64,000 bases of DNA from an uncultured bacterium (lineage in GTDB: Bacteria > Cyanobacteriota > Vampirovibrionia > Gastranaerophilales > Gastranaerophilaceae). A model generated the notes under the pieces. It saw only the letters and a program-made list of their open reading frames with translations, searched no databases and was not told the origin of the DNA. Numbering within the stretch: the stretch's first letter is position 1; each line of letters begins with the position of its first letter. A program made the position numbers and the translations under genes. The stretch covers positions 62,001 to 126,000 of the forward strand of contig CASDOW010000002.1 in the NCBI GenBank assembly GCA_949282195.1. The letters are read 5' to 3'. Shown piece by piece: positions 27,466 through 33,643 of the stretch.

Positions 27466-29013
27466 ATGGATAAGTTGGGTAAAATATTAATTGTAGACGA
27501 TGAACAAATGGTCACAAAAACAGTTGTTATGCTTTTGGGTCTGGAAGGCTTTAGCAATGCAATACCTTTTAATAACCCTAAAGACGCCCTTAGTTATCTT
27601 GAAAACAACGAAGTCGATTTAATTTTAAGCGATTTTATAATGCCTCAAATGAATGGTATTGATTTTCTTGAGCAAGCAAAAAAAATCCAGCCTGAAGTTG
27701 CAACAATACTATTAACAGGCTACGCCGATAAAGAAAACGCAATCAGAGCAATAAATGAAATAGGAATATTTAAATATATTGAAAAACCTTGGGATAACAA
27801 CAACCTCATTATAAATATCAAAAATGCACTAACTCAAACAAGACTCAAAAAAGAACTGAATAAAAAAGTTGAAGAGCTTGAAAAACTAAACGCAAAACTT
27901 GAAAATTATTCAAAAAATCTGGAACAAATAGTTAGAGAAAGAACTTTGGAGCTTTCTCAAGCTAACTCAAAATTAAGCGCAATAATTACAAATTGCGCAG
28001 ACGGTATTATACTTTTTGATAACGACCTTAGGATAACGGATTTAAATACAGCAGCAGTTGAGCTTTTTGGTCAAAATAAAAAAGATTTAATCTCAAAAAA
28101 TCTTTTTGAACTTGTGGTAAGCGAGAAAAAACAATTTAATAAAACCAACTTAAAACCCCATGAAAACCTTTTTTTAAGAAATTATTACCTTATAAACTAC
28201 AAAAAAGATATAAAAATTCCTGTTGAAATAAGTATAGCAACAGTAAACGACGACAAAATAAACTTTTATGTTGCAGTAATCAGAGATGTTACTTATCAAA
28301 AAGAAACAGAGCGCTTAAGAGATGATTTTATTGCCACTTTGACCCATGACTTAAGAACACCCCTATTGGCAACCATTTCAGGATTAGATTTTATTTTGGA
28401 TAAATCTTTGGGTGATATCACAGACAAACAAACAAATCTTTTTCTTGCTATGAAAAAAAGCTCGGAAGACATGCTCGGTCTTGTGAATGCACTTTTAGAA
28501 GTATACAGATATGAAGCAGGAAAAACATACCTATATAAAACAAAGTTTGACATAGTCAAACTTGCTAACGAATGTAAAGACGAATTAACCCCGCTTGCAA
28601 AAAAATCCAATATAGATTTTAAAATCAAAACAAACGATAATGAAATTTTTGTCAATGCGGATAAAAATGAAATCAGAAGAGTATTAGCCAATCTTATGGG
28701 AAACGCTATCAAGCACTCCCAAACAGACGGAGTTGTTACAATTAATATCGAAAAAAACAACAAAGATTTAAAAACAGAAGTAATTGACAACGGTATCGGC
28801 TTATCCAAGGATGATTGCAATAAATTATTCAACAGATTTTCTCAAGGTACAAACCAAAAACGCTCAAGCTCAACAGGTCTTGGTTTATACCTTTCAAGAC
28901 AAATTATAGAAGCACACAATGGAAAAATATACGTTGAATCGAAGCTGAACAAAGGCTCAAAATTCACATTTGAACTAAAAAACTCAATAAACGATTGTAA
29001 GGTAATTTTATGA
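27466..29013 (+). CDS. Receiver-PAS-histidine kinase hybrid
   Basis: 515 residues, cytosolic. N-terminal receiver with IVDDEQ, phospho-Asp in LILSDFIMPQMNG (about 55), Thr in TILLTGYAD and Lys in IEKPWD. A coiled coil (about 125-165), a PAS domain (about 167-285), HisKA with THDLRTPLLATISG (about 293), and HATPase_c with NAIKHSQ, DNGIGL and STGLGLYLSRQ follow. The input receiver implies control by an upstream kinase. It overlaps the next regulator gene by 4 bp (ATGA) and begins the operon that leads to the RND-like genes. Confidence 0.92.
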   Translation: MDKLGKILIVDDEQMVTKTVVMLLGLEGFSNAIPFNNPKDALSYLENNEVDLILSDFIMPQMNGIDFLEQAKKIQPEVATILLTGYADKENAIRAINEIGIFKYIEKPWDNNNLIINIKNALTQTRLKKELNKKVEELEKLNAKLENYSKNLEQIVRERTLELSQANSKLSAIITNCADGIILFDNDLRITDLNTAAVELFGQNKKDLISKNLFELVVSEKKQFNKTNLKPHENLFLRNYYLINYKKDIKIPVEISIATVNDDKINFYVAVIRDVTYQKETERLRDDFIATLTHDLRTPLLATISGLDFILDKSLGDITDKQTNLFLAMKKSSEDMLGLVNALLEVYRYEAGKTYLYKTKFDIVKLANECKDELTPLAKKSNIDFKIKTNDNEIFVNADKNEIRRVLANLMGNAIKHSQTDGVVTINIEKNNKDLKTEVIDNGIGLSKDDCNKLFNRFSQGTNQKRSSSTGLGLYLSRQIIEAHNGKIYVESKLNKGSKFTFELKNSINDCKVIL

Positions 29014-29687
29014 CAGAGAAAAAAATAAATATACTACTAGTTGAAGACCATGAATTTACAAGACTGGGACTTTCGATGAAACTTGAAAACATGCCTGATT
29101 ATAACCTTGTCGCTCAAGCAACCGACGGACAGGAAGGTATTATAATGGCACAAAAATATAATCCTGATGTCATATTAATGGATATAGGTCTTCCAAAAAT
29201 GGACGGTATTACCGCCACAAAAAAAATTAAAGAAGAACTAAAACTTGATTGCGCTGTTTTAATGTTCACCTCAAGAGATAGTAAGGATGATATTTTTGCA
29301 GCTTTTAAAGCAGGAGCGGACGGTTATATTATGAAAGGCTCAAGCTCGGAAAACCTTTTCAATGCAATCAATGCAGTTGCAGTACACGCAGCTTGGATAG
29401 ATTCACAAATTGCAAGAGTAGTTCTATCAAGTATACAAAATGAAGACAATTTACAATCCGAAGAAACAAAAACTCAAAAAGAAGCCAATAAAAAATACGG
29501 ATTAACTAAAAAAGAGCTTGAGGTTCTTGCTTTAATAGTAGACGGACTATCAAACCAAGAAATCTCAGAAAAACTTGTTGTTTCAATATCTACAACAAAA
29601 GCACATGTACACAATATATTACAAAAACTATACCTTTCAGACAGAACAAAAGCAGCAATTGTTGCCCTTAAAGAAGGTTTAGTGTAA
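29010..29687 (+). CDS. NarL/FixJ-type response regulator
   Basis: 225 residues. Receiver with VEDHEF, phospho-Asp in VILMDIGLPKMDG (about 56), Thr/Ser in LMFTSRDS and Lys in YIMKGSS. A LuxR-type HTH at about 155-220 reads YGLTKKELEVLALIVDGLSN then SISTTKAHVHNILQKL. It is the DNA-binding output for the overlapping hybrid kinase. The next gene's ATG begins directly at the base after its stop, so the exported protein is co-transcribed. Confidence 0.94.
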   Translation: MTEKKINILLVEDHEFTRLGLSMKLENMPDYNLVAQATDGQEGIIMAQKYNPDVILMDIGLPKMDGITATKKIKEELKLDCAVLMFTSRDSKDDIFAAFKAGADGYIMKGSSSENLFNAINAVAVHAAWIDSQIARVVLSSIQNEDNLQSEETKTQKEANKKYGLTKKELEVLALIVDGLSNQEISEKLVVSISTTKAHVHNILQKLYLSDRTKAAIVALKEGLV

Positions 29688-30653
29688 ATGTCAAAAAAAA
29701 TTAAAGTCGCTTTAATTGTTACATTTTGCACTATTTTTTGTTTGCCTTGTTATTCTTTTGATTTTAAAAAATATCTTCCTTTTAAGAAAAAACAACCCGA
29801 ACAAAAACAAAGAATGGTTGAAACAAAACAAGAATGGGAAATAGAGGCTAAGAATGTGCCCTTATCAGAAAGAGAAGAAAAAAGCTATCAAGACCCCAAA
29901 AGCACAAAAAAATATTATCAGCCCACACCAAAATATATCTTTGAAAAATACAATTACCCTCAAGGCACAAGACAAATAAATATAGAAGATGTAAAGAAAA
30001 ACCTATATTCATATCCATATATTGTGGCTGACGTTAATTGTCATTATGTTGCATATCCAAGGTATTATTTTTCTCCTGATATAAACCAAATCTCATCAAA
30101 TTTTTATGTGGAAAAACTGGATACATCCAAAACAAAAACAAGAAGAATTTTAGATTACAATCATAATCAACTTGAAAGAAGAGCAATTATTCAAGCAGGT
30201 ACAAAAGAAGTTTATCCTAATTTATTTAACGGATTAACATTAGTTGATTGGAGTGCTGATGGAAAAAAACTGTTAATAAAAGAACAAATAGGCTCAACCT
30301 TAAACGGTATATATAAAACATATTTATATATACATTTTTTAGGAAACGAAAACCAAGAAAGCTATACAATAAAACTGCTCGATTTGGATGATACAATTAA
30401 AAATTATTATCTTGATTGGAAAAATATACAACTGATTAAATACAGATATGATATCGAACCACTTGGCTTTAGCGCTGATAACGACAATTTAATTATAGTT
30501 TTAAGCTACATCTACAATAAAGAAAATCAAAAAATATTCTTAGGCGCTTGGAGCTATAATTGCCTAACTCACGAAATTATTTTATTATCCAAAACAAATA
30601 CTGTATATGAAATAAGTGCAAACGGGCTAATACTAAAAAGAAGTTATGATTAA
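29688..30653 (+). CDS. Exported protein of unknown function
   Basis: 321 residues with an N-terminal signal peptide (KIKVALIVTFCTIFCLPCYS then FDFKKY). A Lys/Gln/Pro-rich linker (about 35-95) is followed by a Tyr-rich beta-strand region with WSADGKKLLIKE and GFSADNDNLIIVLSY. These two blocks look like WD40/TolB-type propeller blades, so a periplasmic propeller is possible. It is translationally linked to the regulator before it and lies 48 bp before the adaptor gene. Confidence 0.65.
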   Translation: MSKKIKVALIVTFCTIFCLPCYSFDFKKYLPFKKKQPEQKQRMVETKQEWEIEAKNVPLSEREEKSYQDPKSTKKYYQPTPKYIFEKYNYPQGTRQINIEDVKKNLYSYPYIVADVNCHYVAYPRYYFSPDINQISSNFYVEKLDTSKTKTRRILDYNHNQLERRAIIQAGTKEVYPNLFNGLTLVDWSADGKKLLIKEQIGSTLNGIYKTYLYIHFLGNENQESYTIKLLDLDDTIKNYYLDWKNIQLIKYRYDIEPLGFSADNDNLIIVLSYIYNKENQKIFLGAWSYNCLTHEIILLSKTNTVYEISANGLILKRSYD

Positions 30654-30701: not shown

Positions 30702-31745
30702 ATGAATTTTATCAGAATTATTCTTCTAACGCTTGCACTGTTATGTTTTGGCGGATGTAATTATAATAATGAAATTAAAAACATAAGCTATATAAAAATC
30801 CCTAAAACCGCTAATTGCAACTATATGGAATTTTACGGCAATATAAAATCGCAAAAAATTGCCGATTTAAGCTTTGAAAGTGAAGGCAAAATCATTTTCA
30901 TTCCCTACATGCAAGGGGATTTTATCAAAAAAGGACAAGTTATAGCCCGCTTGGACGGAGAACTGTATAAAATTAAAAAGAGAGAACAAATTGCACTTTT
31001 GAATAATGCTTCAATAAAAGAGGATCGCTCTAAAATATATTATAAAAGAATGACAACCCTGCACAACTCAGGCGCAATTTCTGATAACGACTGGGAAGAA
31101 GCATATTTTAACTACAAAAGCAGTATTCAAGATGTCAAAGCGCAAAAAGAAAAACTCAGCTATTTAAATAAACAAATAAGCTACAATATGATAACTGCAC
31201 CATATGACTGCTATATAGCTGAAAAATATAAAGACTCAGGCTCTTTTGCTTCAATTGGTGAACCTATTGTGAGAGTTATTGCAACAGGCGATACACAAAT
31301 TGAGATAATGGTTGATTCAAATATTGTCAACAAATTAAAACTAAATGAAAAAATAACAGCAAAATTTAATAATCAAAACTACTTTGGCTTTATAAAACAT
31401 ATTTCCCCTTCCAGCTTAAAAGACGGAGGATATATAGTCAAAATTCTTTTAGATAAAAATTATAAAGATTTAAAAAACGGCATGACCATTAGCGTATTTA
31501 TCCCTCAAAAAGAAAAATACAGTGCAAAAATACCGCTTACAAGCATTGTTTTTGAAGACAGTGAAAAATGGGTTTATAAAATAACGGATATAAAAAATAA
31601 TATCGGCACAATCAAAAAAGAAAAAGTAATCATAGGCGCTATCAACAACAATGAAGCACAAATCGTATCAGGAATAAATGCAAACGACATTATAATTGCA
31701 AAAGATACAGATAAAATAAAACCTAATTCAAAAGTGAGATTGTAA
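30702..31745 (+). CDS. RND efflux membrane-fusion (periplasmic adaptor) lipoprotein
   Basis: 347 residues. Signal peptide with lipobox LCFGGC (Cys about 19) predicts lipidation. Barrel-sandwich/lipoyl half-motifs ADLSFESEGKIIFIPYMQGD and YNMITAPYDCYIAEKY flank a helical hairpin (about 95-150); a beta-barrel (TQIEIMVDSNIV) and membrane-proximal domain (PLTSIVFEDSEKWVYKI) complete the AcrA/CusB order. It would bridge an inner-membrane RND pump and an outer-membrane TolC-like channel. The gene abuts the RND-porter-like gene with no gap. No channel gene is visible. Confidence 0.88.
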   Translation: MNFIRIILLTLALLCFGGCNYNNEIKNISYIKIPKTANCNYMEFYGNIKSQKIADLSFESEGKIIFIPYMQGDFIKKGQVIARLDGELYKIKKREQIALLNNASIKEDRSKIYYKRMTTLHNSGAISDNDWEEAYFNYKSSIQDVKAQKEKLSYLNKQISYNMITAPYDCYIAEKYKDSGSFASIGEPIVRVIATGDTQIEIMVDSNIVNKLKLNEKITAKFNNQNYFGFIKHISPSSLKDGGYIVKILLDKNYKDLKNGMTISVFIPQKEKYSAKIPLTSIVFEDSEKWVYKITDIKNNIGTIKKEKVIIGAINNNEAQIVSGINANDIIIAKDTDKIKPNSKVRL

Positions 31746-33329
31746 ATGAAAAAATTTTTGATAATTTTTTCTTGTGTTATTATTTTTTCTATTATTTATG
31801 TAGTAGAAAATTTTGAAAAAAATAAAAATAACTATGAAATTAAAATAATAGCAAAAATAGGCAATCTAAAAGCAAAAGAGATTGATGCACAAGTTGCGGA
31901 AGAAATAAAAGATAAAATCTCAAACCTTGAAATGGTTAAAGATGTCTACATTTTTTCTTATGACGGATATTGTAATATATATTGCAAGTTAAATCCAACA
32001 ATTATATTTAAACAAACAGCAATAGACATGGTAAAAACAAGGCTGACGCAAGCTTTGTATAATGTTGACAAAAGAATAAACATATTTTTTGACGATAACA
32101 ACTCAATTAAATATGATACTTTTATAACTATAAGTACAAATAAAGACTATAAAAACCTAAAAGCTCTGACAGACAGCGCCCATGATAAGCTTTTAGATTA
32201 TAAAATAGCTTCAAAAATAATTAAAATGGGCGAACAAAAAACAACAATTTTTGTAAATTACAAAACAGACAACTTAAGAAAATACAATCTTTCAATTAGC
32301 GACTTATCCGACTTAATCAATAACAATAATATATATCAAAACTCAAGTACAGAAACAACAAAAGATAGTTCATTTCCAATATATAGCAACGCAAGCATAA
32401 AAAACATAAAAGATATAGAAAAAATAAGAGTTTATTATAAAAATAGTCAATTTTCAAACAACCTCGGTGATATTTTTGAAGTTAAAGAAACAACCACAAC
32501 ACCTCCTGAAAGCCTAATATTTTATGATGACAAAAAGACTCAAATCCTTGCATTAAGAAAAAAAGAAGGATTATTGAGAATAATTTATGATATAAAATTG
32601 GCATTTTATTTAAAAGAATTAAAAAAACAAAACGAAGATATAAAAGTTATAAAAACCAATACACTGGACACAATCGATGTTTACACGCAAAAAACAAACA
32701 GCATATATAAAACAGAACAACTTTATGAAAAAATATCATCATATCATAATATAAGAAATATAATATATCTAATTGGAATAAACAGCCCTAAAATCAACAA
32801 TGATACGGATTTTTTCGAACAAGAATTTAACAAAATAACAATCTTGTGTCCCAAATATGAAACAAGAAGAATAAAAGCAATACTAAACGAGCTTAATATC
32901 GATTATGCAACCAAAGAGAAAAAAGAATATTGCGACAAAAACCTTGAAAATCTGTATTTAAAAATATCAGAATATAAAAAAGAAAAAAATATAATCAATT
33001 CAACCACAGATAAAAAATTATCAATTAATTATAATATAAACGACAAAGCTCTAAATGCATATAAAATGGATAAAAAAGAAATAGTCAATTCGCTTCAAGG
33101 ATACTACAAAGGGCTTGAATGTTCCAATTTTTGGCAAGGCAGCTCCAACACTAAAATAATATTAAAAAATAATGACAACACAGATACAATTTACGTATAT
33201 TCAAAAAACTACAAAACGCTTTTTGATATAGCCAATTTTACACAAAAAGAAATAGAAGAAAATTTCTATAAAATTTCAAGAAAAAATGCACAATACTGTT
33301 CAATTGTAAAATTCAAAAACCCTTCTTAA
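31746..33329 (+). CDS. RND porter-domain-like protein lacking the multi-helix membrane domain
   Basis: 527 residues, about half an RND pump. One N-terminal membrane helix (about 4-24) is followed by NNYEIKIIAKIGNLKAKEID and KISNLEMVKDVYIFSYDGY, which follow the PN1 domain of CusA/AcrB-type pumps. LRKYNLSISDLSDLINNNN, KDIEKIRVYYKNS, LGDIFEVKE and ILALRKKEGL follow PN2. A second porter half seems present (EQEFNKITILCPKYETRR; NAYKMDKKEIVNSLQGYY; SNTKIILKNND). No run of membrane helices lies between or after the halves, so the proton-relay domain is missing. Highly Lys/Asn-rich. Inferred from pattern, not from a search. Confidence 0.65.
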   Translation: MKKFLIIFSCVIIFSIIYVVENFEKNKNNYEIKIIAKIGNLKAKEIDAQVAEEIKDKISNLEMVKDVYIFSYDGYCNIYCKLNPTIIFKQTAIDMVKTRLTQALYNVDKRINIFFDDNNSIKYDTFITISTNKDYKNLKALTDSAHDKLLDYKIASKIIKMGEQKTTIFVNYKTDNLRKYNLSISDLSDLINNNNIYQNSSTETTKDSSFPIYSNASIKNIKDIEKIRVYYKNSQFSNNLGDIFEVKETTTTPPESLIFYDDKKTQILALRKKEGLLRIIYDIKLAFYLKELKKQNEDIKVIKTNTLDTIDVYTQKTNSIYKTEQLYEKISSYHNIRNIIYLIGINSPKINNDTDFFEQEFNKITILCPKYETRRIKAILNELNIDYATKEKKEYCDKNLENLYLKISEYKKEKNIINSTTDKKLSINYNINDKALNAYKMDKKEIVNSLQGYYKGLECSNFWQGSSNTKIILKNNDNTDTIYVYSKNYKTLFDIANFTQKEIEENFYKISRKNAQYCSIVKFKNPS

Positions 33330-33404: not shown

Positions 33405-33575
33405 TTATCTTGCTATTCTGAAGTTAATCATTGCTTTGTGGTTAACTGCGATTAATTCCATTGAATTCCAGAATTCGTTTGGTTGAATAGCTGATTTAGT
33501 GTTGTCTAGGTTTACAGTTACTTTTGATGAATAAAGTTCTGCTAATTTTTTATCGAAATCTTCAGTAATTTTCAG
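33405..33575 (-). pseudogene. Orphan C-terminal gene fragment in the 314-bp gap
   Basis: Between 33330 and 33643 there is no complete gene. On the minus strand an open frame of 56 codons ends at TAA 33405-33407 and reads LKITEDFDKKLAELYSSK through NEFWNSMELIAVNHKAMI. It looks protein-like, but upstream a stop comes before any ATG, GTG or TTG, so it is probably the tail of a lost gene. An 8-bp hairpin CCCTTCTT/AAGAAGGG (33320-33340) overlaps the stop of the porter-like gene but has no T-run. Confidence 0.45.
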
Positions 33576-33643
33576 TTTTTGTTTATTTCTTTACAAAACT
33601 TTACATAAATTTTTTACCAAATTCATCTTTGATTTTATAGCAT

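Follow-up and report, generated by a model that had tools for sequence, protein, structure and literature searches.

The window, a stretch of 64,000 nucleotides, contains a gene for an RND-derived protein of 527 residues in which both halves of the periplasmic porter and the docking funnel are predicted to be present and the membrane motor is missing. Genes of the same design occur across the genus, in uncultured bacteria of the gut, and in four species of a second genus, where full-length pumps of the same subfamily are also found. We tentatively propose, at slightly less than even confidence, that these proteins make up a natural motorless class of RND proteins, formed by at least two independent losses, in which the docking base of a pump has been put to separate use, as a free-standing seat for an adaptor and its outer-membrane channel; the resulting tripartite-like assemblies would lack power at the inner membrane.

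Fold and membrane topology of the 527-residue protein

The gene occupies positions 31,746–33,329 of the forward strand, and is supported by the open reading frame, a Pfam match, an AlphaFold2 model and structural alignments. An earlier, sequence-only reading of this DNA had described a long open frame, set with zero gap behind the gene for an RND adaptor lipoprotein and encoding one N-terminal helix with none of TM2–TM12. Each of these points stands. The ATG abuts the adaptor stop codon (31,743–31,745), the frame is open to its end, and many stops interrupt the opposite strand. In a 19-residue Kyte-Doolittle scan, the sole hydrophobic stretch lies at residues 4–22, within a predicted membrane helix (residues 2–26; 31,749–31,823) equivalent to TM1. 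Past residue 40 the highest 19-residue mean is 0.65, compared to 2.6–3.1 in full-length RNDs, for which the identical scan gives 8–12 hydrophobic stretches. All 29 short forms that we collected have a single hydrophobic helix by this measure. The Pfam family ACR_tran matches the protein (E 6.7e-11; 41.1 bits against a gathering cut-off of 28), with its best stretch in the N-terminal half, and NCBIfam pump models score it far under their cut-offs. Because the protein lacks the membrane domain of 12 helices, with proton-relay residues in TM4, TM10 and TM11, that marks RND efflux transporters of the HAE/HME type, we refer to it as RND-derived and not as an RND pump.

An AlphaFold2 model, computed from an input alignment of 25 relatives (pLDDT 88.7, pTM 0.84), predicts an RND porter and docking funnel in the order PN1-PN2-DN / PC1-DC, with a truncated PC2 that lacks its final alpha-beta unit. 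Compared to OqxB, TriC, CusA and AcrB, the model gives Z scores of 24–26. Residues 25–526 align to OqxB 40–836 (Z 25.9; 488 residues, 3.4 Å), residues 25–527 align to CusA 42–830 (Z 24.9), and TriC yields 25.5 in VIA-align, in which some 490–515 residues are aligned across OqxB, TriC and CusA. The OqxB and CusA alignments indicate that both periplasmic halves are present and both TM blocks absent, as the sequence-only reading had surmised for the porter-like halves. The best 16 PDB matches in Foldseek are chains of AcrBper (5eno_C: E 1e-27, TM 0.74), and the nearest solved proteins by sequence profile are MexK (E 8e-12) and TriC. The Foldseek matches and Z scores also answer the concern, raised in that reading, that a structural match to the RND porter might be lacking.

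The subdomain limits, all on the forward strand, follow our own reading of the predicted secondary structure. A segment matching the PN region of MexK and TriC (31,839–32,093; model and profile match) comes after the membrane helix, followed by the first half of PN2 (residues 125–161; 32,118–32,228; model and MexK/TriC profile), the funnel/docking subdomain DN (residues 166–260; 32,241–32,525; model, profile and relatives' alignment) and the second half of PN2 (residues 263–303; 32,532–32,654; model and relatives' alignment). The alignment to full-length relatives places the missing TM2–TM8 at the PN2-PC1 junction, residues 304–306 (32,655–32,663), which is flanked by predicted strands at 298–303 and 307–313. 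Beyond it lie an eroded PC1 (residues 307–391; 32,664–32,918; model, relatives' alignment and the model of the shortest relative, L025), the first half of PC2, or PC2a (residues 392–418; 32,919–32,999; model and relatives' alignment), and the funnel/docking subdomain DC (residues 422–494; 33,009–33,227; model, profile and relatives' alignment). The truncated second half of PC2 (residues 499–527; 33,240–33,326) ends the chain, and TM9–TM12 are missing beyond it, as judged by the model, the alignment and tblastn.

A mis-joined or frameshifted full-length gene could look like this, and most of the genomes are draft assemblies of the metagenome type. However, identical architecture is seen in 29 genomes of different species, assembled independently, and the junction coincides with a boundary between subdomains. 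Nor did tblastn find a remnant of the TM half beside the gene: TM blocks of full-length relatives, searched against the window and the short loci of the second genus, gave nothing below E 0.3. We regard an assembly or gene-calling artefact as next to inconceivable. A split gene with its TM half elsewhere was also considered and rejected, as an ACR_tran search of the genome itself returned only a full-length RND, the motorless gene and a SecD-like gene.

The closest design known to us is man-made. AcrBper was engineered by fusing both periplasmic loops of AcrB into a soluble protein; it is trimeric and binds drugs (PMC8617272). In AcrBper (PDB 5EN5, 5ENO, 7B8R), as in the motorless protein, the PN and PC halves are directly joined, TM2–TM8 are missing and the chain ends before TM9, so that none of TM2–TM12 is present. 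The two differ in that AcrBper is soluble and has no anchor, whereas the natural protein keeps TM1, has an adaptor gene alongside and lacks the end of PC2; they are ~12% identical. The sequence-only reading, which knew of no described system of this design, had seen neither AcrBper nor the full-length relatives and probable second loss described below. In the open-licence literature we found nothing relevant on natural TM-less RND proteins or on RND proteins in this bacterial group. TriC/MexK, CusA, AcrB and OqxB have the porter and funnel fold in common with the motorless protein but add 12 TM helices and proton-driven transport, and the motorless chain alone has neither. SecD/SecF and MmpL-type proteins are related to it at the superfamily level only, and none of these RND members is known to lack a multi-helix membrane domain.

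Conservation, selection and origin of the short form

We found the motorless form in 25 of the 28 sampled genomes of the genus (genus 1), at lengths of 408–558 aa and identities down to 23–30%, which disposes of the possibility that the TM half was lost only in this strain. Counting both genera, the short-form frame is open in 29 genomes of different species. Ratios of dN/dS (NG86) are 0.07–0.11 in the closest genus-1 group, 0.09–0.19 in two further genus-1 sets and 0.10–0.14 in the short forms of the second genus (g42), compared to 0.05–0.11 for the adaptor; all are approximate, because in most pairs synonymous sites approach saturation. By these estimates the short form is shown to be under purifying selection, with dN/dS ~0.1. 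Strain-specific decay is ruled out by the relatives together with these ratios, and it is on these grounds that the product is not a stray fragment, as had been claimed; the zero gap alone would not establish it.

A slower decay, in which a pump is being lost and the present product is functionless, would fit the progressive shortening and the apparent absence of the gene from three congeners (G006, G013 and G015), in which no match to the short form was found. Two of these, G006 and G013, carry the kinase, regulator and 321-residue genes that lie upstream in the window (see below) without the adaptor/motorless pair. The G006 assembly is 77% complete, and the G015 contig stops 149 bases past the 321-residue gene, too early to judge. 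Against slow decay stand the dN/dS of ~0.1 among diverged species, the open frames in 29 genomes, an adaptor that is equally constrained and the same outcome having probably arisen twice, and we consider it very improbable.

Searching with a short-form profile, we identified full-length RNDs of the same subfamily, ~990–1020 aa long, in genera g42, g52, g53 and g55. Each adjoins a related adaptor, and both of its halves match the profile with a TM block between them. These pumps resemble the short forms in subfamily, adaptor family, adjacent gene order and the RLS motif of the adaptor (see below), and differ from them in having the TM4 Asp motif GILVDNSIV and 8–10 membrane helices in the simple hydropathy scan, by which other RNDs show 12. 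Four of the seven carriers in g42 are species with short forms (553–573 aa), each with the adaptor directly adjacent, and three have full pumps. One full locus (G156) and three short ones (G135, G192 and G207) have common upstream neighbours and a SulP-like transporter downstream; the two other full loci (G075 and G109) share those upstream neighbours. The SulP-like protein (L088, L089, L090, L093; family assigned by eye) has ~540 aa and 9–10 predicted helices, and its gene lies directly 3′ of both short and full RND genes, with a gap of ~20–30 bases. Outside the two genera, samples of the family, order and phylum yielded no short forms, with a profile that is blind to unrelated RND subfamilies, and every relative whose frame allowed a judgement was full length; a 497-aa frame near a contig end in G055 was left out of the count.

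In the adaptor tree, the g42 short and full forms are joined (support 100/98), with genus 1 apart from them; grouping all short-form adaptors in one clade is rejected by an AU test (P = 0.0014). A concatenated tree likewise unites the short and full forms of g42 (100/100). These trees suggest that the motor was probably lost twice. A single origin of the short forms is rejected by the adaptors, although the porter-only tree favours it slightly, uniting the two short sets (79/98) on long branches; on the porters alone, unity of the g42 forms is not rejected (P = 0.31). One caveat here is that adaptor exchange could in principle mislead the inference. Two independent losses are, on these phylogenies, likely but not proven.

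The adaptor and its genomic neighbourhood

Immediately upstream, at 30,702–31,745 on the forward strand, lies the gene for an RND-type periplasmic adaptor of 347 aa (TIGR01730: E 3.5e-48; 164.2 bits, cut-off 94.9). A lipobox-like segment, FGGC, was recognized by eye, in keeping with the lipoprotein of the sequence-only reading. The adaptor hairpin carries the RLS motif RMTTLHNSGAIS (residues 116–127; 31,047–31,082, forward strand), a docking signature for outer-membrane channels, with the spacing R-x3-L-x6-S, which we take to be that of AcrA-type adaptors. This pattern is present at the hairpin in 29 of 29 adaptors of short forms. The RLS motif is where adaptors contact TolC-type channels (PMC13328181). 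At all 25 genus-1 loci the adaptor gene precedes the short form, abutting it, overlapping it slightly or separated from it by a few bases. The gene cluster of the motorless protein contains no outer-membrane-channel gene, and TolC-like proteins are encoded in all 23 genomes searched.

Further upstream, in the same gene run and on the same strand, are genes for a histidine kinase with an N-terminal receiver domain (27,466–29,013), a response regulator, NarL/FixJ-type by eye (29,010–29,687), and an exported-looking protein of 321 aa (29,688–30,653), which has no Pfam or NCBIfam match and no assigned family. Many genera of the order have conserved this trio. The motorless protein and its adaptor could serve it as a sensor or regulator, reporting on the adaptor or the state of the envelope, or could titrate the adaptor or channel away from active pumps; the genus-1 pair follows the 321-residue gene after tens of bases, and the gap of 48 bases in the window has no terminator-like site. 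However, the g42 short pair sits in a different neighbourhood, and in other genera and families the trio is found with no such pair. We judge a sensory or titrating role unlikely, albeit the least so among the alternatives to our preferred reading. In G040 (C3:199216-200001), a relative of the 321-residue protein is placed within a 24,398-aa open frame, which may reflect a giant ORF or a run of N.

Another way to reconcile the missing motor with transport is a motor supplied in trans, either by the resident RND of full length (G000 C6, ~1100 aa) within a mixed trimer or by some other energised inner-membrane partner. Short-form genomes that were searched do also have full-length or contig-split RND genes. 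Yet the resident RND, a member of a distant subfamily, has an adaptor and a TolC-like gene of its own and occurs just as much in congeners that lack the short form. The genus-1 cluster holds no energising gene, and no free-standing RND TM half was found, the only other match in the genome itself being SecD-like. A borrowed motor seems less probable than either the sensory role or the passive porter discussed below.

Just past the motorless gene there is a small convergent ORF (33,405–33,590, reverse strand) of ~54–60 aa, with 75–95% DNA identity across the genus. It is present in G006 (L045), which has no pair; its ATG is lost in the window and present in relatives. We considered whether the conserved stretch 3′ of the motorless gene might be an RNA, and found no Rfam match; it reads as the small ORF. 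In seven assemblies (L003, L004, L005, L008, L010, L020 and L022) the contig breaks off no more than ~250 bases past the motorless gene, a hint that the sequence there is repeated or difficult to assemble.

Retention of the docking funnel and a possible role

To assess what has been kept, we compared mean pairwise identity in porter and funnel columns. In full pumps (seven representatives), porter columns are better conserved than funnel columns (0.476 versus 0.300), and in genus-1 short forms (12 representatives) the order is reversed (0.283 versus 0.331). The difference of differences is significant when columns are treated as independent (Mann-Whitney P = 1.7e-12; permutation P = 1e-4). Of the residues invariant in full pumps, genus-1 short forms retain 83% in DN, 92% in DC, 11% in PC1 and 2% in PC2a, and g42 short forms 100, 100, 13 and 25%, the DN and DC values resting on few sites, as only three and two residues, respectively, are invariant there. 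PC2a and part of PC1 are gone from four relatives (L019, L020, L022 and L023), and PC2a and nearly all of PC1 from L025 (408 aa). In the L025 model (pLDDT 81.7; Z 18 against AcrB), PN1, PN2, DN and DC are still predicted to fold, one loop within DN being weak. As read from these alignments, preferential retention of the funnel (docking) subdomains after motor loss is shown.

This pattern bears on the idea of a passive porter, whose pockets would bind substrates and let them flow to the channel down a gradient or along a cycle of the adaptor. AcrBper, which has no TM domain, binds drugs in the LLT trimer (PMC8617272), and the 527-residue form and the short forms of g42 retain PC1. Some porter function may persist, given that identity in PN1 and PC1 still stands at ~30% among the short forms of genus 1. 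Nevertheless, erosion is heaviest in PC1 and PC2a, and five relatives have deleted these parts in whole or in part; passive transport appears a slightly poorer prospect than the sensory role.

Having no membrane domain, the motorless chain cannot itself couple protons to transport. The sequence-only reading had offered three options: a passive porter, one driven by a partner, and a sensor or scaffold for the adaptor. As erosion affects the transport cleft and spares docking-funnel residues, the evidence from these comparisons leans toward a scaffold or passive docking base. In AcrB, the funnel is structurally unchanged through the pumping cycle, collecting exported substrate and connecting neighbouring protomers, and mutants of the MtrD proton pathway still seem to assemble with MtrCE (PMC8277102). 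With the funnel kept and assembly apparently independent of the proton relay, a docking base is the simplest reading. An RND transporter would have lost both TM blocks, TM2–TM8 between the porter halves and TM9–TM12 at the end, leaving TM1 as the only anchor. The protein would be made together with the adaptor that it docks, and its chains may form a trimer-like periplasmic ring at the inner membrane, seating the adaptor and thereby a TolC-like outer-membrane channel. In RND pumps a homotrimer docks to a hexamer of adaptors and to the channel, an arrangement on which the RLS motif and the conserved funnel bear indirectly here. The outcome would be an assembled but unpowered envelope-spanning complex, passive or gated by binding, in place of a proton-driven pump. 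Such a docking base, anchored by a single helix and serving an adaptor-channel assembly that is not powered, is our preferred interpretation of the sequence data, with nearly as much weight given to it as to all else.

Gram-negative bacteria export drugs mainly by RND pumps, and the present proteins touch on the question of whether the adaptor-channel part can be of use without the proton motor. Evolution seems to have cut away the motor, probably twice, near the site that engineers chose for AcrBper, and to have kept the adaptor and the docking subdomains. They also sound a note of caution, in that genes annotated as 'RND permease' by their porter domain may not encode pumps. That the outer half is kept under selection after the motor was apparently lost twice suggests that a partial pump has a useful job, and these proteins offer a natural separation-of-function mutant with which to ask what assembly alone does for the envelope.
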